Positions 49,833-57,366 of a stretch of DNA of 58,410 nucleotides are shown here, one piece after another (the stretch's first letter is position 1; each line of letters begins with the position of its first letter). The position numbers were made by a program, and so were the translations under genes. Source of the DNA: Candidatus Sulfotelmatobacter sp. (GTDB lineage: Bacteria; Acidobacteriota; Terriglobia; Terriglobales; Acidobacteriaceae); assembly GCA_017883385.1 (NCBI GenBank), contig JADGNQ010000021.1:1-58410 (forward strand), given 5' to 3'. The notes below the pieces were generated by a model. The model had not been told where the DNA came from. It saw only the letters and a program-made list of their open reading frames with translations, and made no database searches.

Positions 49833-50375
49833 CTACCTTTGGACGAGTGCGCTTGAATCCACCCGGGAGCGGCACGACTCGCACAGGGTGCTTTCGCGAA
49901 GGTCAATCCACTCGACGGCATGAGACGAGGCCATGACGCAGCGGTAGTCCTGGCAGTGGCGGAGATCGAGCGTGTGGCCTAGCTCGTGAACAGATTCCTT
50001 GAGGAGACGCTGGCCGAGCAGGGCACCGTCTTGGTCAAGGCCGTAGAAATCCTGACGCAGGCGGTGGGAGGAAATGACGGCGCAGGGGCCGCCCATCTGG
50101 GCTTCGCCGAAAACGTATTTCAAGATGGGGATGTAGAGGTCGACATCGGCAACGGCAAGGACGCGCCAGGTCTGCGGTCGGACCAGAGACTGCATGCGCT
50201 GCAGGATTTCAGAGGAATGATACTGCTGACGTTCGGGATGGTAGGCGGGGGCGGGGTCGAGTACTACAGGGAGAACTTCACATCTGACATGAAGACGGTC
50301 AGGAATTGCGGCGCGCAAGTCCTTGAGGAGTGAGACATCCACCTTACCGACCGGAAGCAGATGCAGCAGCTTCAT
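49833..50375 (-). CDS. amzA: Archaemetzincin (M54 metallopeptidase)
   Basis: The 180-aa protein has the archaemetzincin motif: HELGHTLDLRHCQDYRCVM carries the HExxH zinc site, the third histidine and the downstream CxxxxCxM, and CESC lies in the C-terminal tail, giving a second zinc knuckle. The N-terminal LLHLLPVGKVDVSLLKDL and RVLAVADVDLYIPILKYVFGEA are also typical. It is a cytoplasmic zinc peptidase of unknown substrate, more common in archaea and vertebrates than in bacteria. It lies downstream of the sigma-54 activator gene on the same strand, 63 bp away, and may be part of that operon. Confidence 0.9.
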   Translation of the reverse strand: MKLLHLLPVGKVDVSLLKDLRAAIPDRLHVRCEVLPVVLDPAPAYHPERQQYHSSEILQRMQSLVRPQTWRVLAVADVDLYIPILKYVFGEAQMGGPCAVISSHRLRQDFYGLDQDGALLGQRLLKESVHELGHTLDLRHCQDYRCVMASSHAVEWIDLRESTLCESCRSRVDSSALVQR

Positions 50376-50438: not shown

Positions 50439-51794
50439 TCACCGAGCCTCGACCGGAGTACGGCTCCAGCCGTAGCGTTTGAGTTTGTGGTGGAGCGTAA
50501 CACGGTCGATGTCGAGGACTTCGGCGGCGCGGCTCTGGTTGCCGCCGCACTCGTCGAGGACCCGCAGGATGTGGGCGCGCTCAATCTCGTCCAGAGACTT
50601 GCCGGCGGAGGCGAGGGCGGGCTGCGTCTTGAAGATGAAGTCCTGCTCGCGTAGTTCGGGTTCCTGGGCCACGACCATGGCACGCTCGACGGCGTTTTCA
50701 AGTTCGCGAACGTTGCCCATCCAGGGCTGCTGCTGCAGCTGATTCATGGCGGCAGGCGAAATCCGCGTGATGTGCTTGCTCATGGCGAGTGCAAACTTGC
50801 GCACGAAATGCTCGACGAGCGGGGGGATGTCCTCGCGGCGGTCGCGCAGCGGAGGCAACTCGATGCGGAAGACATTGAGGCGGTAAAAAAGGTCCGGGCG
50901 GAACGTGCCGTCTTCGATCATGTGTTCGAGATTCTTGTTGGTGGCGGCCACGCAACGGAAATCGACTTTGATAACCTGATTGCCGCCGACGCGGGTGATC
51001 TCGCGCTCCTGGAGCACGCGCAGGAGATCAGTTTGCGTCTTGAGACTGATGTCGCCGATTTCGTCGAGAAATACGGTACCGCCCTCAGCGATTTCGAATT
51101 TGCCCTTCTTGCGGTATTGCGCGCCCGTGAAAGCGCCTTTCTCATGGCCGAAGAGCTCGCTTTCAAGCAAGGTCTCGGTTAGAGCACCGCAGTGGATGAC
51201 GACCAGGGGATGGAAGCGACGTATGCTGGCGGCGTGGATGGCGCGAACCACGAGTTCCTTGCCCGTACCGCTCTCACCAGTAATCAGGACGTTGGCGTCG
51301 GTGGGGCCTACGGTTTCGATGGCTTCGAACACTTTGCGCATGGCTGAGCTCTGCCCTACCAGGTCGCCGGGGTTTGTGGCCGCGGCGACAGTTTCCCGCA
51401 GCTGGATGTTCTCCCTTTCGGCGCGGTGGTGGGCAAGGGCTTTCTTCACGAGATGTGCGATCTCGTCCGGGTCGAGGGGCTTGCTGACGTAGTCGTAGGC
51501 GCCATTCTTCAGGGCGGTGACGGCAGTTTCCACCGAGGCGTAACCGGTCATCATGATGACGATGAGGTTGGGATCCATCTCGTGCAGGCGGCGCTGCAGT
51601 TCGATTCCGTCGGTGCCACGCATTTTGATGTCGAGCAACGCGAGGTCCCACTTGTTTTCGGCCATGCGAGTGAGGGCGTCGCTGGCGCTTTCGGCGGTGC
51701 CGATTTCATAGCCTTCTTCGCGAAACCATTTACCGAGGGAATCGCGGACGCTGAGTTCATCGTCGACGATTAGTAGCTTGCCTTGTGTTTCCAC
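50439..51794 (-). CDS. Sigma-54-dependent response regulator (NtrC/AtoC type)
   Basis: The 451-aa activator has a receiver domain (about 5-120; LIVDDE, phosphoacceptor in LALLDIKM, MTGYAS, SKPLD), an AAA+ sigma-54 interaction domain (about 145-380; Walker A GESGTGKE, GAFTGA loop intact, Walker B GGTVFLDEIGDI, RPDLFYRLNVFRIELPPLRDR) and a Fis-type helix-turn-helix (about 405-445, GGNQSRAAEVLDIDRVTLHHKLKRYGW). The start is GTG 51794 with GGGAGGTG upstream. It lies 6 bp after the sensor kinase and should be its partner, activating sigma-54 promoters. Confidence 0.95.
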   Translation of the reverse strand: METQGKLLIVDDELSVRDSLGKWFREEGYEIGTAESASDALTRMAENKWDLALLDIKMRGTDGIELQRRLHEMDPNLIVIMMTGYASVETAVTALKNGAYDYVSKPLDPDEIAHLVKKALAHHRAERENIQLRETVAAATNPGDLVGQSSAMRKVFEAIETVGPTDANVLITGESGTGKELVVRAIHAASIRRFHPLVVIHCGALTETLLESELFGHEKGAFTGAQYRKKGKFEIAEGGTVFLDEIGDISLKTQTDLLRVLQEREITRVGGNQVIKVDFRCVAATNKNLEHMIEDGTFRPDLFYRLNVFRIELPPLRDRREDIPPLVEHFVRKFALAMSKHITRISPAAMNQLQQQPWMGNVRELENAVERAMVVAQEPELREQDFIFKTQPALASAGKSLDEIERAHILRVLDECGGNQSRAAEVLDIDRVTLHHKLKRYGWSRTPVEAR

Positions 51795-51800
51795 GTTTGA

Positions 51801-53486
51801 TCACCTCCCGCTGGCAGTCGCGGAAATTTCGTTGGCCCGGGACGGCGCGGTTTTTTCGGTACCCGCTTCCGGATCCCAGGGCAGAGTTACGGTAAAGGTG
51901 GTGCCACGGCCGGGCTCGGATTGCACTTCGATGTTTCCGTTGTGGCGCTCAAGAATGCTGTGGCTGATGGCGAGGCCCAACCCGACGCCGCGTCCAGTCT
52001 CTTTGGTGGTGAGGAAGGGCTCAAAGATACGGGGTAGGATTTCGGGAGGAATACCGGCGCCGTCGTCGCGCACCACGATGCAGACTTGGCTGGGCTCACG
52101 GGTGGAGCTGGTCGTGAGCCACAGGTTGCCGCCTTGCGGCATGGCGTCCATGGCATTCATGACCAGCGCGAGGATCACCTGCTCGATCTGGGCGGCGTCG
52201 CAGAGGACCAGGGGCAGATCGGGATCGAGTTGCGGTTGGATTTGGATTCCGGCGAGTTCGAGTTGATGTTGCACAAGGCGCAGGGACCGGTCGATGACCT
52301 GGTTCACGTTGGCGGGCTGCAGGTTCATCGGTGTGGTGCGCGAGAAAGTGAGCAGGTTCTTGACCAGATCGCCGCAGCGGCGGCTCTCGGAGGCGATGAG
52401 ATCGAGGGAGTCCCTGATTTCCTGGCGGTGGCTGCGGCCAGAGTCGTCCCGATCAATCCACTTTCGCAGAAGCTTCGCGTAAGTGAGGATCCCCGAGAGC
52501 GGATTGTTGATCTCATGGGCGAGCACAGCAGCCATCTTGCCGATGGAGGCCATCTTCTCGGTGTGCAGGGCATGCTCGTGGGCCCGTTTGAGTTCGCGGG
52601 TCTTTTGCTCCACGCGCTCCTCGAGTGTGCGGGTCCAAGCAACGTTTTCGCTATGCTCCGACTGGAGTTGGCGACTCATGCCGTTGAAGGAGTGGGCGAG
52701 TTCGCCGATTTCGTCTTTGGACTGCACATCAATCTGGTAGCCCAAGTCACCGGCGGCGAGACGTTCTGTACCGCGTTCGAGCGCCTTCACCGGCCGGCCA
52801 ACGACTTTCCAGACAAAGAACCAGCTTAGGAGAGCAATCAACAGCAAGGCGCAGCCGGTGTAAGCGATCATGCGGTGGCTGCTTTCGGCGAGTTGCACGT
52901 CGGCCTTGGCGAGGGAAAGATTGGTGTCGAGGACGCCGAGGATGTGCTGCTCCGCGGGATGAGCGTGGCAAGCGGCATTGGAGCACGCTGGCTGGTTCTC
53001 GATGGGAGTGATGATGCCGAGGACGCGCGCTCCCCCTGCATTTCGGTAAATGCGGAACCGGTCGGGACGGTTCAGGCGCGCCAGCGGTTGAGACTGGGCG
53101 TGGCACGCGTAGCAGGCTTCGGCGGTCTTATCGACGACATGGTTCTGTTCGGCCGAATCGGTAGTGTAGGTGATTCTGCCTTCCTGATCGAAGATGCGGA
53201 TTTTCTCCATGCCGGGCTCGGCAGCCATGGTCTTGATGGAGTGGTAGAGTCCTTCGCGATCGTTGCGGAGCATGTAATCGGTGGTGCTGTGCTTGATGAC
53301 GTCGCTGACACGTTCCGCACTGAGCAGGGTAGTTTGCTCTAGATGCTGGCGGTGCAGGCGGACGTTGAGATAGCCGAGCAGACCGAAAATCAGCACCATG
53401 GCACCGAGCAACAAAATGTTCAGCTTGGCGCTGAGGGTAAAAGTCAGGCGCAACCAGCGACTGCGAGTTGGTTCAGTCTCCTGCAT
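51801..53486 (-). CDS. Sensor histidine kinase with periplasmic haem-c motifs
   Basis: The 561-aa kinase has a first membrane helix (about 22-42), a periplasmic sensor region, a second helix (about 207-227), HAMP (about 228-280), HisKA with VLAHEINNPLSGILTYAKLL (about 318-340) and HATPase_c (DDGAGIPPEILPRIFEPF, GVGLGLAISHSILERHNG). The sensor region holds CYACH at 125-129, a standard c-type haem site, and CSNAACH at 168-174, a CX4CH variant. It should sense redox potential or a ligand such as NO or O2 through haem. It overlaps the NrfD gene by 14 bp. Confidence 0.9.
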   Translation of the reverse strand: MQETEPTRSRWLRLTFTLSAKLNILLLGAMVLIFGLLGYLNVRLHRQHLEQTTLLSAERVSDVIKHSTTDYMLRNDREGLYHSIKTMAAEPGMEKIRIFDQEGRITYTTDSAEQNHVVDKTAEACYACHAQSQPLARLNRPDRFRIYRNAGGARVLGIITPIENQPACSNAACHAHPAEQHILGVLDTNLSLAKADVQLAESSHRMIAYTGCALLLIALLSWFFVWKVVGRPVKALERGTERLAAGDLGYQIDVQSKDEIGELAHSFNGMSRQLQSEHSENVAWTRTLEERVEQKTRELKRAHEHALHTEKMASIGKMAAVLAHEINNPLSGILTYAKLLRKWIDRDDSGRSHRQEIRDSLDLIASESRRCGDLVKNLLTFSRTTPMNLQPANVNQVIDRSLRLVQHQLELAGIQIQPQLDPDLPLVLCDAAQIEQVILALVMNAMDAMPQGGNLWLTTSSTREPSQVCIVVRDDGAGIPPEILPRIFEPFLTTKETGRGVGLGLAISHSILERHNGNIEVQSEPGRGTTFTVTLPWDPEAGTEKTAPSRANEISATASGR

Positions 53487-54666
53487 GCTCCATTACCGGC
53501 GAAACGTCCGGCACCTCGGAGTCCGGCTCGGTTAACTGTTCCTGCGTGACCTCTTCTTTGGGGAAGATGGGCAGATACTTCACCGCCAGTCCAAAGAGGG
53601 CGAAGCCGGCGGAAATAATCATGCCGGTTACGGCCAACTCGCTCCACTTGGGGAAGTAGCGGACGCCGGTGGAACCTTCGAAGCCCGTGATGCTTACGTT
53701 CATTCGGTTGGTGATGAAGCCGAGGACGACGAGCACAGCGGCAAAGTAGAGGCCGGTCGGGCTGGATCGCACCTTGGGCTGTACCAACAGCAATAAGGGA
53801 AGAATGATGCAGAGTGAGATCTCGAGCCAGAACAGGTACATCTCATATCCGGGCTGAAGCGCCAGCTTGAGCGCGCCGCGATTGGCCAGGTCTTCGAAGC
53901 GGAGGATGGCGTAGACGCCAAGCACGACCACTAGAACGCGGCCGAGTTCCTGCAGGACGGGTAATTCCAGCTGGAGTCCGAAATGCTTGGAACTCATGGA
54001 CGACTCGAAAATGGTCATGGCCAATCCCACAGCTATGGCCGAGAGGAAGAAGAACACCGGCAACAACGGGCTGTACCACAAGGGGTATAGCTTCTCGGGA
54101 ACGATGAGGTACAGCGTGCCGAGGGAGGATTGATGCAGCGTGGAGAGGATCACGCCGAAGATTACGAGCGGAATCAGAATGGCGCGAACGACCTTTAGGG
54201 GCTTCTGCAGGTTAAAGCGTTCCAGCACGATGGGGGAGAACTCGAGCGCGAGGACGGTGGTGTAAAGCATTACGCAGTAGGCAACTTCGAACATGACGGA
54301 GTGAGGATTCCGCATGATCAGTGGATGCCATATGTTGTAGGGCTTGCCCAGGTCGAACATCAGGGCCGCGGAAACCAGGATGTATCCAAGAAATGCGGTG
54401 AGAATCGTAGGCCGGATGATGGAGTGCAAGCGCTTGATATTGAGAATGTGGACGGCGGCGGTGAGAGTAAATCCACCGGCTGCCAGCATGACGCCGCACA
54501 GTACGTCAAAGCTGACCCAGATGCCCCAGGGGAATTGATCGCTGAGGTGGGTCGAGGCGCCGAGACCCTGGGTGAAGCGGATGAAGGTGGCGTAGAGGCC
54601 GGCGGCCATCATGAAAAGGAAGACGAGCTTCCAGAAAGTGAAGCGGAACTTCGTGGCGGGGGCCAT
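53473..54666 (-). CDS. NrfD/HybB-type quinone-interacting membrane subunit
   Basis: The 397-aa protein has about ten membrane helices and belongs to the NrfD/PsrC/HybB family, which exchanges electrons with the quinone pool for a Fe-S partner. Typical segments are DQFPWGIWVSFDVLCGVMLAAGGF, MFDLGKPYNIWHPL and STLHQSSLGTLYLIVPEKLYPLWYSPLLP (HybB-like). Its ATG immediately follows the TAA of the 4Fe-4S gene. Family length is typical. No molybdopterin or NiFe catalytic gene accompanies it here. Confidence 0.93.
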   Translation of the reverse strand: MAPATKFRFTFWKLVFLFMMAAGLYATFIRFTQGLGASTHLSDQFPWGIWVSFDVLCGVMLAAGGFTLTAAVHILNIKRLHSIIRPTILTAFLGYILVSAALMFDLGKPYNIWHPLIMRNPHSVMFEVAYCVMLYTTVLALEFSPIVLERFNLQKPLKVVRAILIPLVIFGVILSTLHQSSLGTLYLIVPEKLYPLWYSPLLPVFFFLSAIAVGLAMTIFESSMSSKHFGLQLELPVLQELGRVLVVVLGVYAILRFEDLANRGALKLALQPGYEMYLFWLEISLCIILPLLLLVQPKVRSSPTGLYFAAVLVVLGFITNRMNVSITGFEGSTGVRYFPKWSELAVTGMIISAGFALFGLAVKYLPIFPKEEVTQEQLTEPDSEVPDVSPVMEHAGD

Positions 54667-55440
54667 TTATCTCTTCCTCCCATTCTTCTCGTCAGTCGGT
54701 TTAGGGCCTTCGGCGAGGGCGACCTCTTCGCGGCGGTGCGTGATCCACCAGATACCGCCCAGCACCATTCCACCAAGGGGAACGAAATCAGGGATGTGAG
54801 ACAGGACCCGGTAGGTGAGCATGGGCATTGGATCTTTGGAAAGGTTGGTACGGTAGCCGAAAGTCTCGAACGGAACAGCGGAGAGCAGCAGCACAGACGT
54901 GCCGCCGACTTCCTGCAGACCGTAAATGTGGTCCACATACTTGCCAGGGTTGTCGTGGATGCGTTGCTGGGCCTCGGCAATCAGGTCGTCGCGTTCACCG
55001 AACTTGGTGGCACCGGTGGGGCAGATTTCCGCGCAGGCGGTCTGTTTTCCCTGAGACACACGATCGGGACACATGGTGCACTTCTGCACTTTGGGAACGA
55101 GCTTGCCCCACTCGTATTTGGGGACGCTGAACGGGCAGGCAACCATGCAGTATCGGCAGCCCATGCACTTCGATGCGTCGTAGGTGACGGGGCCGAGTGC
55201 CGTCTTCTGGAGCGCACCAACAGGACAAACCGAGGCGCAGGAAGGGTCCGTGCAATTCATGCACAGGCGACGCATGAACTTGTCGCCCCGCGTGAGAACG
55301 ACCGTCATTTTGTGCGCCGACTGTATTTCTTCGGCGGCGATGGCATCGTCGTAGGGAAGTTTGTTTTGAGCAGCGCAGGCCTGTTCGCACTGCTTGCAGC
55401 CGATACAAACCGTGGAATCATATAAAAGAGCTTTGCACAT
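54667..55440 (-). CDS. HybA-like 4Fe-4S dicluster-type ferredoxin protein
   Basis: The 257-aa protein has four cysteine groups for four [4Fe-4S] clusters: CIGCKQCEQAC, CMNCTDPSCASVCP, CMGCRYCMVACP, and CTMCPDR with CAEICP. It ends with one membrane helix (about 213-232, VPLGGMVLGGIWWI) and a basic tail. HybA proteins normally have a Tat signal and face the periplasm; this one starts directly with MCKALLYD, so it probably faces the cytoplasm. GGGAGAC precedes ATG 55440. First gene of the operon, divergent from the GcvH-like gene. Confidence 0.92.
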   Translation of the reverse strand: MCKALLYDSTVCIGCKQCEQACAAQNKLPYDDAIAAEEIQSAHKMTVVLTRGDKFMRRLCMNCTDPSCASVCPVGALQKTALGPVTYDASKCMGCRYCMVACPFSVPKYEWGKLVPKVQKCTMCPDRVSQGKQTACAEICPTGATKFGERDDLIAEAQQRIHDNPGKYVDHIYGLQEVGGTSVLLLSAVPFETFGYRTNLSKDPMPMLTYRVLSHIPDFVPLGGMVLGGIWWITHRREEVALAEGPKPTDEKNGRKR

Positions 55441-55659
55441 GAAATATGTCTCCCGGTATGGCTATTCTGAGGACGGAGCCACCCGGAAATCCTTTCGACC
55501 GACGCCTGAGCTGAGGAGGATGGGGCGAGCGACGACCGGCGTAACCGCAGACGGGAATCGGACCCGCACAAGCTGCATACCTCATCAGATCGGAGGCTGT
55601 CGCGAAATTCAGCAGCTTCAGACAGCTAGTATTTTCAACAATTAAGGATTCCTCAACCG

Positions 55660-55693
55660 TGACCCGCATCACCAGCACACGTGATGGTGGTCA
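55660..55693. promoter_or_regulatory. Inverted repeat, candidate activator site
   Basis: TGACCCGCATCAC (55660-55672) and GTGATGGTGGTCA (55681-55693) pair at 11 of 13 positions across 8 nt. CATCAC/GTGATG relates it to the TGATGC dyad 58 bp further on. Candidate binding site for the adjacent sigma-54 activator. Confidence 0.4.
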
Positions 55694-55750
55694 ATAGGAT
55701 TTTGCGGGGTTGGACTGAGCGGTTCCCCGTTGCTTTTTGCAGCAGCCGGG

Positions 55751-55767
55751 TGATGCGGTTTGCATCA
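55751..55767. promoter_or_regulatory. TGATGC-N5-GCATCA dyad, candidate activator site
   Basis: A perfect 6-5-6 dyad 311 bp from the 4Fe-4S start and 292 bp from the GcvH-like start, a normal enhancer distance for a sigma-54 activator acting both ways. Confidence 0.4.
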
Positions 55768-55957
55768 GGAGTCTGTATACAGCCAAGCTATTGATAGCAG
55801 GCTAGTTCCAAGGCACTGGATCTGGCAGAGCGAAGAGATTGGGGTGTTCCGTGTTGTGATTGTCATCGTCAGGCGATGATGTGTTTTCTCGCAGGCTTTG
55901 CGACTCCGGATCTCTGCACATCGGTATCTCCTTCATAGTGTTAGGGATCCACGCGCA

Positions 55958-55974
55958 TTGGCATAGTGCTTCGC
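55958..55974 (+). promoter_or_regulatory. Weak sigma-54-like promoter
   Basis: TTGGCATAGTGCTTCGC keeps TGGCA of the -24 element and TT of the -12 element, but the GC is shifted by one base compared with TGGCAC-N5-TTGC. It is about 85 bp before the GcvH-like start. Confidence 0.25.
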
Positions 55975-56058
55975 ACCCCGTGTGGGTTTGGTCGGGCGAT
56001 TGCCTTTAGGAAAAGTGAGAGCGGCTCTGAAGAAAGGGCGCTCCGGGCGAGGTGGGTT

Positions 56059-56733
56059 ATGACAGTCATCATGGTACTGCTTACATTCGGAATCTTCTTA
56101 CTGATTGATTACGTGCGTGGCCAGAAGCAAGTGGCCAAGCAAGCGGTTGTGCGGATGACAACTCGGGAAGCGGCGCCACGAGTCGTTCCGGCGATGGTCG
56201 CGGGCTTCCAGGTTCCAGAGAATGTGCGCTATCACGCGGGGCACACGTGGGCACTGAGCGAGAGTCCAGACCGAGTGCGGGTGGGCATGGACGATTTCGC
56301 GTCGAAACTGGTGGGAAAGATCGAGAGCATCGCGCTGCCACAGCGGGGACGGTGGGTCCGGCAGGGGCAGAAGATCTGGACGATCTTCCGTGACGGCAAG
56401 TCGGTGGACATGGTTTCGCCCATCGAGGGCACGGTAACCGACATCAACGAGTCCGTGATGAAGGATCCGGAACTCGCGCGGAAAGACCCTTATGGTGAAG
56501 GCTGGCTGCTGACGGTGCAGGCTCCTGATTCGAAGATCAACTTCCGCAACCTGCTGGGTGGCACGCTGGCACGGCTGTGGACAGAGGATTCCGCCCTGCG
56601 ACTGCAGAAGCGAATGCCGATGGCGCTGGCGGGTGCGCTGGCACAAGACGGCGGCGTGGCGGTCGATGACCTGACAGCACACATGCCAGACCAGGACTGG
56701 GCCACCGTGACGAAAGAATTCTTCCTATCCTAA
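56059..56733 (+). CDS. Membrane-anchored GcvH-like lipoyl domain protein
   Basis: The 224-aa protein starts with a membrane helix (about 2-18, VIMVLLTFGIFLLIDYV) followed by RGQKQVAKQ, so the rest probably lies in the cytoplasm. About residues 55-185 match the glycine-cleavage H protein: RYHAGHTWALSESPDRVRVGMDDFASKL, GRWVRQGQKIWTI, then RDGKSVDMVSPIEGTV, where Lys114 aligns with the lipoylated lysine, and DPYGEGWLLTVQ. No gcvT or gcvP is present. H proteins have no membrane anchor, so this is a specialised lipoyl carrier. It is divergent from the Fe-S/NrfD/kinase operon. GAGGTGG precedes ATG 56059. Confidence 0.85.
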   Translation: MTVIMVLLTFGIFLLIDYVRGQKQVAKQAVVRMTTREAAPRVVPAMVAGFQVPENVRYHAGHTWALSESPDRVRVGMDDFASKLVGKIESIALPQRGRWVRQGQKIWTIFRDGKSVDMVSPIEGTVTDINESVMKDPELARKDPYGEGWLLTVQAPDSKINFRNLLGGTLARLWTEDSALRLQKRMPMALAGALAQDGGVAVDDLTAHMPDQDWATVTKEFFLS

Positions 56734-56822: not shown

Positions 56823-57230
56823 CTAGTCGGGGAGGGCGCCTTCCGGCACAGAACGCGAGTACGAACGAAAGATCCACGTGCCCACGATGACAGCAGAAGT
56901 CAGCATGATCACGCGCAGATACTGGGCTGGAGGAACGGCGCCGTCTCCGAAGATGGTGCGAAGCAGACCGAACGTTGCGCTGCTGGCACAGAGAACAAAA
57001 TAGACACGCTCTCTGACACAGCGTGAGATGGTCACCAGCCAAGCCAGGATCGATGCGACGGTGAGATAGATCCCGATAAGAACGATATCAGCAGTTGCGA
57101 CAAGGCCGGGACGCACAATGCCAGCTTTGGGGGAAGCGAAACCGTGGAACGCGACGCCGAGGAACACCACGGAGTGGACGAGGGCGATCAAGGCGCGCTT
57201 GCGATTGGTGAGGACCCCAAACTCGCTCAT
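56823..57230 (-). CDS. Small membrane protein, unknown function
   Basis: The 135-aa product has four hydrophobic segments (about 11-30, 40-62, 72-90, 100-120) and short basic loops (LTNRKRALIAL, RCVRERVYF). No motif identifies it. ATG 57230 (MSEFGVLTNRK) is preferred over the open frame from 57332, whose N-terminal translation is charged and not membrane-like. No strong ribosome binding site is seen. Confidence 0.6.
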   Translation of the reverse strand: MSEFGVLTNRKRALIALVHSVVFLGVAFHGFASPKAGIVRPGLVATADIVLIGIYLTVASILAWLVTISRCVRERVYFVLCASSATFGLLRTIFGDGAVPPAQYLRVIMLTSAVIVGTWIFRSYSRSVPEGALPD

Positions 57231-57366
57231 ACGATGTTCTAGTTTCGCGTGTTCGGTGGCCAGATGGTGTGACTTGTCCCACCGTATCTTGTGATTCCCG
57301 TCACAAGACGGGTCCCGGGGGCCGTCTGGCATCGGGAGATTCGTGGTGGTACTATCGCGGGCGAAT

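Follow-up and report, generated by a model that had tools for sequence, protein, structure and literature searches.

The HmcB/HmcC and HybA/HybB systems each pair a multi-cluster iron-sulfur (Fe-S) protein with a ten-helix membrane subunit of the NrfD family. The same pair is encoded on contig JADGNQ010000021.1 of a Candidatus Sulfotelmatobacter sp. (GCA_017883385.1, a 6.8-Mb draft genome), the whole of which, 58,410 nt, was analysed here and is called the window. Although the Hmc and Hyb families are its best NCBIfam matches, the window pair stays under their curated cut-offs, lacks a twin-arginine translocation (Tat) signal, has no conserved catalytic subunit that we could find, and is linked to genes for a GcvH-like protein, a histidine kinase, a sigma-54-dependent activator and an archaemetzincin. 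Of alternative complex III and Qrc, the window cluster has the Fe-S and NrfD parts only. The kinase and activator share with ZraSR/AtoSC-type systems their architecture, a putative -24/-12 promoter and upstream palindromes, and differ from them in a haem-c sensor, an archaemetzincin within the operon and a GcvH-fold protein as the putative output. This protein has the fold common to the glycine cleavage H-protein and to LbpA, described in PMC6067878 as a lipoate carrier outside the glycine system, but it lacks the lipoyl lysine and has an N-terminal membrane helix and a C-terminal helical extension with a DGG motif. The window archaemetzincin keeps the Zn ligands and cysteines of the M54 family and differs from other members in one motif residue and in its place within a two-component operon; according to PMC3427221, very little is known of the biological importance of such proteins. 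We consider it somewhat probable (roughly 0.6) that these genes form a conserved acidobacterial redox-control module in which a GcvH-fold protein is switched on for the Fe-S/NrfD pair. As judged from the sequences, the kinase/activator pair most likely switches on this non-lipoylated protein as a subunit of the pair.

In the literature searched (without subscription papers), no paper joins GcvH or a GcvH-like protein with NrfD, and none joins archaemetzincin with NrfD or with a histidine kinase. The main text of the NrfD review PMC8076601 has zero mentions of histidine kinase, GcvH, regulator or lipo, and the text of PMC6018796, on peatland Acidobacteria with dissimilatory sulfur metabolism, has zero mentions of NrfD, glycine cleavage, Hmc, ferredoxin oxidoreductase, sigma-54 or menaquinone. 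A redox-control module would give the widespread 'glycine cleavage H' annotation of soil Acidobacteriota a different, testable role, would supply a predicted regulon with exact putative binding sites, and might be a biological setting for a bacterial archaemetzincin.

The operon lies on the minus strand. It comprises the HmcB/HybA-like Fe-S gene (54667..55440; Fer4_11), the gene for the HmcC/HybB-like, quinone-reactive NrfD subunit (53473..54666; 10 predicted transmembrane helices, PF03916 86.8 bits), a membrane histidine kinase gene (51801..53486; HAMP, HisKA and HATPase_c in Pfam), the gene for an NtrC/AtoC/ZraR-like response regulator (50439..51794; Response_reg, Sigma54_activat and HTH_8 in Pfam) and the archaemetzincin metalloprotease gene (49833..50375). 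By their open reading frame coordinates, the Fe-S gene abuts NrfD, NrfD and kinase overlap by 14 bp, the kinase ends 6 bp from the activator, and the archaemetzincin follows the activator after 63 bp. On the plus strand, the GcvH-like gene (56059..56733) diverges from the Fe-S gene across a 618-bp gap that holds the regulatory sites. Pfam and NCBIfam profile searches confirmed the families of the operon genes and of the GcvH-like protein. The places, overlaps and families that a first-pass annotation had given to five of these genes therefore stand. It had overlooked the archaemetzincin as the sixth gene, and its GTG start for GcvH at 55966 has to give way to ATG 56059, since relatives begin at the equivalent ATG. 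Its idea of a redox module holds in composition and conservation, whereas the lipoyl-arm mechanism that it proposed fails on a missing lysine. The six-gene order recurs in many genomes, which argues that the layout is not due to chance.

With the GcvH-like protein as query, 80 loci were fetched, the nearest from Acidobacteriaceae, Terriglobia and Candidatus Sulfotelmatobacter metagenome-assembled genomes (MAGs). The records of two others, L127 and L120, are titled Riflebacteria and Bacillota, which we take to be doubtful bin names. Loci, genomes and contigs of the window genome are labelled L, G and C, respectively; window-like clusters are called type A, and two kinds among the paralogous or distant ones types B and C. 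At least four of the five operon genes are found in 35 of the 80 loci, the others lying on short contigs or having no operon within the stretch retrieved. Where the GcvH stretch was operon-poor, 28 of 30 genomes have a type-A NrfD elsewhere (E <= 1e-60; one a fragment); the two without it are those of L115, a 1.6-Mb genome, and of L124, where GcvH is flanked by genes for kinase, activator and protease but not for Fe-S/NrfD. Of 37 genomes of the same genus, one of them that of the window, 22 have both GcvH (E <= 1e-80) and NrfD (identity at least 55%), 13 have neither, one has GcvH without NrfD and one NrfD without GcvH (Fisher p = 5e-8, relatedness ignored), and a type-A archaemetzincin (identity at least 60%) is present in 21, all inside the NrfD set. 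Over 297 acidobacterial genomes, an archaemetzincin (E <= 1e-30) accompanies the GcvH family in 45 of 48 genomes and occurs in 18 of the 249 without it (p = 8e-35, shared descent ignored); relaxing the limit to 1e-20 (74 genomes) raises the latter to 29 of 249. Family membership required a match at E <= 1e-20 reaching at least position 217 of 224 (48 genomes), with both thresholds chosen after viewing the match lists; G106, whose match ends at 190, was excluded although an archaemetzincin adjoins its GcvH-like gene. Both the conserved neighbourhood across Acidobacteriota and the conservation of the GcvH-like gene with the operon, which the first-pass annotation had named as tests of a module, are borne out by these counts.

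As far as sequence and model tell, the GcvH-like protein is a GcvH fold without the lipoyl attachment residue. It passes the Pfam GCV_H cut-off (70.4 against 22.2 bits) and does not reach that of NCBIfam gcvH (73 against 115.85 bits). An AlphaFold2 model (11 sequences in the alignment; mean predicted local distance difference test score 80.9) gave 22 Foldseek matches in the PDB at E <= 0.001, all of them entries or complexes of H-proteins or GcvH-like proteins (human LIAS in the title of two), with template modelling scores by target length of 0.75-0.93. The lipoyl site VESVKAVS is kept in true H-proteins of the phylum, among them that of the window genome. The window protein has IFRDGKSVDMVSP there, of the same length, so that glycine falls in the lysine column and Lys114 (counted from ATG 56059) one residue later, and in the model D112 and G113 form the beta-turn, K114 belonging to the strand that follows. 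Among the 80 named loci, 77 could be scored and 3 could not; some come from a shared MAG, and a single gene seems to be split between L112 and L129. Their lipoyl-lysine column holds G in 72 and D in 5, and the Lys114 column K in 19, C in 16, V in 14, A in 11, T and R in 4 each, S, I and Q in 2 each, and Y, N and E once each. Lys114, the lipoyl lysine of the first-pass annotation, thus lies in a column where lysine is found in only 19 of 77 loci. Its membrane anchor with a positive-inside flank is upheld: across 68 loci, 0 K/R residues stand just before the N-terminal helix and 179 in the next 15 residues, and the GcvH-like domain is therefore predicted to be cytoplasmic. The C-terminal DGG is a family mark, with exceptions in L046 (DAG), L208 (DGA), L197 (none) and L131 (a mis-called frame). 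The DGG/ALAQD tail, which we considered as a candidate protease site, also occurs in type C, where no adjoining archaemetzincin was seen. A search of 5.8 billion proteins gave 4840 relatives at E <= 1e-3, true GcvH probably included, and several of the best 120 are named 'glycine cleavage system H lipoate-binding protein'; the lysine should be checked in PF01597 matches labelled lipoate-binding. A separate, longer GcvH-like family occurs in acidobacterial genomes of family f32, its frames often near 376 aa and its match ending before the DGG tail.

Cis-elements before the GcvH gene point to its regulation. We scanned the 300 bp before each gene for TGGCAC-N5-TTGC with GG and GC intact, dropping upstreams of 150 bp or less. 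Such a sigma-54 site precedes GcvH in 64 of 77 loci at no more than two mismatches, in 35 at no more than one and in 10 perfectly, compared with 15, 2 and 0 of 124 control genes of the same loci; those with at most one mismatch lie mostly 65-85 bp before the ATG. The same three counts are 6, 3 and 1 of 36 before the Fe-S gene. At no more than two mismatches, 2 of 37 archaemetzincin upstreams have a site, as do 1 of 11 KorA upstreams and 1 of 12 first genes of VorB operons (oxidoreductase neighbours described below); kinase upstreams have none (0/37). With so few sites, sigma-54 control of the operon itself, of KorABC or of the VorB operon was rejected. In the window, the putative -24/-12 promoter of the GcvH gene (55989..56003, plus strand; TGGTCGGGCGATTGC) aligns with the orthologous core GTTTGGC..GATTGCCTTT and has three mismatches to the consensus. 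A dyad search found GTTG-N7-CAAC in 28 of 71 GcvH upstreams and in 9 of 566 controls, and a position weight matrix (PWM) scan located copies around -265, -243 and -141 relative to the -24 box, with a further one often around -117. The window has three such palindromes, given without strand, at 55727..55743 (CCGTTGCTTTTTGCAGC; PWM 13.5 at -266), 55750..55768 (GTGATGCGGTTTGCATCAG; PWM 8.4 at -243) and 55850..55868 (CGTGTTGTGATTGTCATCG; PWM 8.4 at -142). Scored with a matrix trained on 36 sites from these same upstreams, 73 of 77 GcvH upstreams have at least one palindrome, 66 at least two and 53 a pair 20-25 bp apart, compared with 23, 6 and 4 of 300 controls and 3, 0 and 0 of 77 shuffles.

The fair test is therefore offered by loci outside the training. 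In 18 distant upstreams of this kind (420 bp), palindromes score at least 8 in 12 and at least 14 in 7, and a site with no more than two mismatches is present in 14, two of them at least about 300 bp before the gene; neither element was found in the seven type-B and type-C upstreams tested. We also looked for the combination of a site with at most two mismatches and two palindromes, or with at most one mismatch and one strong palindrome, in 109 non-duplicate loci (1.64 Mb). Of its occurrences, 51 stand before GcvH, in 49 loci, two precede the leading gene of distant operons (L193 and L195), and six fall elsewhere. Among those six, four share their palindromes with GcvH but lie on the opposite strand (one each in L095 and L107, two in L101), the one in L106 shares them on the same strand, and the one in L203 is about 480 bp before its GcvH. 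The GcvH gene thus looks like a target of the activator rather than a gene for a fixed electron shuttle.

The kinase carries the haem-c motifs CYACH (residue 125) and CSNAACH (residue 168) between two membrane helices, in a predicted periplasmic position. CxxxxCH is found in all 34 relatives and both motifs in 30 of them. Its sensor region, with these motifs, scores 22.2 bits (cut-off 27) against Mcp40H-20 (PF21563), which we take to be a haem-c PAS-like sensor domain. The activator has the receiver, AAA+ domain with GAFTGA loop, Fis helix-turn-helix and partner kinase that define a sigma-54 (NtrC-family) two-component system, and the loop is kept in 39 of 39 relatives. The archaemetzincin exceeds the NF033823 cut-off (155.2 against 145 bits). 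HExxHxxxxxH is present in 37 of 37 full-length relatives and C141, C146, C165 and C168 are invariant over 11 diverse rows; in the window copy, D replaces G of HExxHxxGxxH(C). Because its gene adjoins the kinase and activator genes or separates them, as in L040, L041, L047, L193, L200, L201 and L206, we place the archaemetzincin on the signalling side of the module, with proteolysis predicted from the motif. That it turns over the GcvH-like protein is a guess.

Taken together, a redox-control module might work as follows. The kinase would read the envelope redox state through its periplasmic haem-c sensor and, as its domains suggest, phosphorylate the sigma-54 activator. As co-occurrence suggests, the latter would bind the palindromes that precede the GcvH-like gene at constant distances and would fire the sigma-54 promoter of that gene. 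The product, a GcvH-fold protein presumably unable to carry lipoate at the usual site and held by one helix on the cytoplasmic face, could be a subunit of the NrfD/Fe-S pair that is switched on and off, or a docking protein for it; the pair, given its family, would exchange electrons with quinone. The cytoplasmic partner in several lineages is likely to be a 2-oxoacid:ferredoxin oxidoreductase, to judge from the neighbourhood. Which way the electrons run and what the protease does are likewise inferred.

Genes for 2-oxoacid:acceptor oxidoreductases lie in the flanks of 25 of 80 loci, and a 26th has the accessory gene only; at most 9 kb were fetched on each side, and many flanks were ended by contig ends. 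The genes are of two kinds by NCBIfam, with alpha subunits about 36% identical. In 11 loci, KorABC immediately precedes GcvH in the same orientation. A VorB-type operon, mostly with a CoA transferase and a ferredoxin, lies on one side of GcvH in 11, and five loci have VorB-type genes past the Fe-S end, two of these five belonging to the KorABC class as well. In L046 the VorB-type genes are followed by the order GcvH-FeS-NrfD-kinase-activator-archaemetzincin, and in L201 a single-chain pyruvate:ferredoxin oxidoreductase (PFOR; 1731.7 bits, cut-off 911) follows the GcvH genes on the same strand. Since the relatives carry 0 to 7 POR_N genes each (E <= 1e-20), we estimate a chance neighbour at about 2% per locus, and since the loci are related, the effective oxidoreductase events may number perhaps four or five.

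The Fe-S/NrfD pair might instead act as a quinol:periplasmic cytochrome c oxidoreductase, the 2-oxoacid oxidoreductase neighbours being co-regulated or fortuitous, and we regard this as a tentative but serious possibility. Distant clusters speak for it. L193, L195 and L200 each combine a small Cys protein, a Tat-bearing Fe-S protein, NrfD, a GcvH-like protein, a three-haem cytochrome and another GcvH-like protein, and NrfD bears a C-terminal three-haem domain in L202:9465-11102 (TIGR04257 57.3 bits) and L204:9968-11542 (three CxxCH). Type B joins a GcvH-like protein, NrfD and Fe-S with a five-haem cytochrome, another GcvH-like protein, Cys-rich at its N-terminus, and a subunit whose molybdopterin-binding match of 19.6 bits is under the cut-off of 26.8, a set of parts in which it resembles alternative complex III and Qrc. 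Its clusters (L047:7613-14765, L041:4144-10395 and L052:5267-11481) have GcvH-like proteins without the lipoyl lysine and adjoin a kinase-archaemetzincin-activator set, and part of one stands on contig C177 of the window genome (L040). Within type A, the commonest extra neighbour is a small cytochrome-c-like gene, as a rule before the Fe-S gene, in 14 of the 35 loci with at least four of the five operon genes (13 of the 14 with CxxCH). A periplasmic cytochrome partner is harder to reconcile with the window operon, which has no cytochrome gene and whose Fe-S protein, as the first-pass annotation had claimed, has no Tat signal: no start codon lies between the preceding stop and ATG 55440, and most listed type-A orthologues begin at the equivalent point, L058, L076, L116 and L129 being called a few residues off. 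Nor would we readily regard the pair as an ordinary HybAB or HmcBC, serving as membrane unit to a hydrogenase or molybdoenzyme whose genes lie elsewhere. HmcBC and HybAB are indeed its best NCBIfam matches, but all four fall under the curated cut-offs: the Fe-S protein reaches 259.6 bits with HmcB and 199.6 with HybA (cut-offs 420 and 263), and NrfD 325.9 with HmcC and 303.9 with the HybB type (550 and 450), the QrcD profile giving 165.9 against 570. A NiFe (nickel-iron) operon adjoins the type-A cluster of G002 at about 2 kb and a NiFe subunit lies about 8 kb off in G011, yet, among the matches listed, a large subunit is near type-A NrfD in only 2 of 23 same-genus genomes, whose contigs are fragmented, and none is on the window contig. 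The G002 hydrogenase moreover has its own Tat-bearing HybA and HybB-like partner, and the window genome has a second such pair on C172. None of the molybdopterin matches listed lies within 10 kb. A catalytic subunit just outside the cluster, which would have counted against a self-contained module, is thus not general over the 35 loci, and we think such a membrane unit unlikely.

A similarly low probability attaches to the idea that the promoter and palindromes belong to another enhancer-binding protein while the neighbouring activator has other targets. Further sigma-54 activators may well exist in the genome, and the operon itself mostly lacks the site (6 of 36 Fe-S upstreams). The sites, on the other hand, track the GcvH family even where it is unlinked from the operon, and similar palindromes precede the first gene of GcvH operons in distant relatives, in several cases next to a related kinase/activator/protease set. 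The earlier model, in which a lipoamide dithiol arm gives electrons to the Fe-S protein, drew on the GcvH fold, the membrane anchor and the presence of Lys114 in the window. We now consider it highly improbable and have rejected the arm: the lipoyl lysine is missing, its column holding G or D in all 77 loci that could be scored, lysine is uncommon in the Lys114 column, true H-proteins of the phylum keep VESVKAVS, and the model puts K114 past the turn in a strand. In the other direction, it is rather doubtful that the redox-control module extends to a phylum-wide circuit in which kinase, activator and cytoplasmic archaemetzincin control an H-protein mimic, by transcription and by proteolysis of the DGG tail, that docks 2-oxoacid:ferredoxin oxidoreductase onto Fe-S/NrfD.

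Several observations weigh against a redox-control module of the kind preferred here. The type-A Fe-S domain may face either side of the membrane: it has no Tat signal, but its C-terminal helix and the basic flank of this helix are like those of exported, Tat-bearing relatives. Distant clusters have Tat-bearing Fe-S proteins and multihaem cytochromes, which points to periplasmic electron flow there, and L201, otherwise like L193, L195 and L200 but without the cytochrome, has a Tat signal on its Fe-S protein with the PFOR at the same locus. The window has no oxoacid oxidoreductase gene, nor do the fetched flanks of its closest clade, and sigma-54 sites are scarce before KorA and VorB operons. 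Thirteen of the 77 GcvH upstreams have no site at two mismatches or fewer, and the window promoter, with three, fails this cut and lies outside the count. The palindrome matrix was trained on what it scored, every regulatory link rests on cis-elements and co-occurrence, and the loci are related, a few coming from the same MAG. In L206 and L210, as in L124, a GcvH-like gene stands with kinase, activator and archaemetzincin genes and has no Fe-S/NrfD beside it.

Minor features of the parts and their relatives may be added. The short basic loops of NrfD suggest the usual membrane orientation of HybB; a sequence search found no solved NrfD relative at E <= 0.001. Compared with solved chains, the Fe-S protein shows a general-level likeness to FdnH (1kqf), NrfC of 2vpw and subunit B of alternative complex III. 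Type C comprises a GcvH-like protein, Fe-S, NrfD and a kinase without CxxCH. The small Cys-rich protein before the Fe-S gene in the distant clusters (CPxLKEVVMLYC; L193:5203-5427, L195:5575-5817, L200:5511-5750, L201:11770-11976) has no NCBIfam match in its L195 copy, and a similar Cys motif opens the second GcvH-like protein of type B. In the distant relative L197 (595-5915), the genes immediately before Fe-S-NrfD-GcvH are those of a NuoE-, NuoF- and HoxU/NuoG-like diaphorase and one without a match, and L205:7860-12088 has three GcvH-like genes around one Fe-S/NrfD pair. In the window, 56823-57332 encodes a small two-helix protein with no Pfam or NCBIfam match, which is found near GcvH in 8 of the 35 loci with at least four of the five operon genes.

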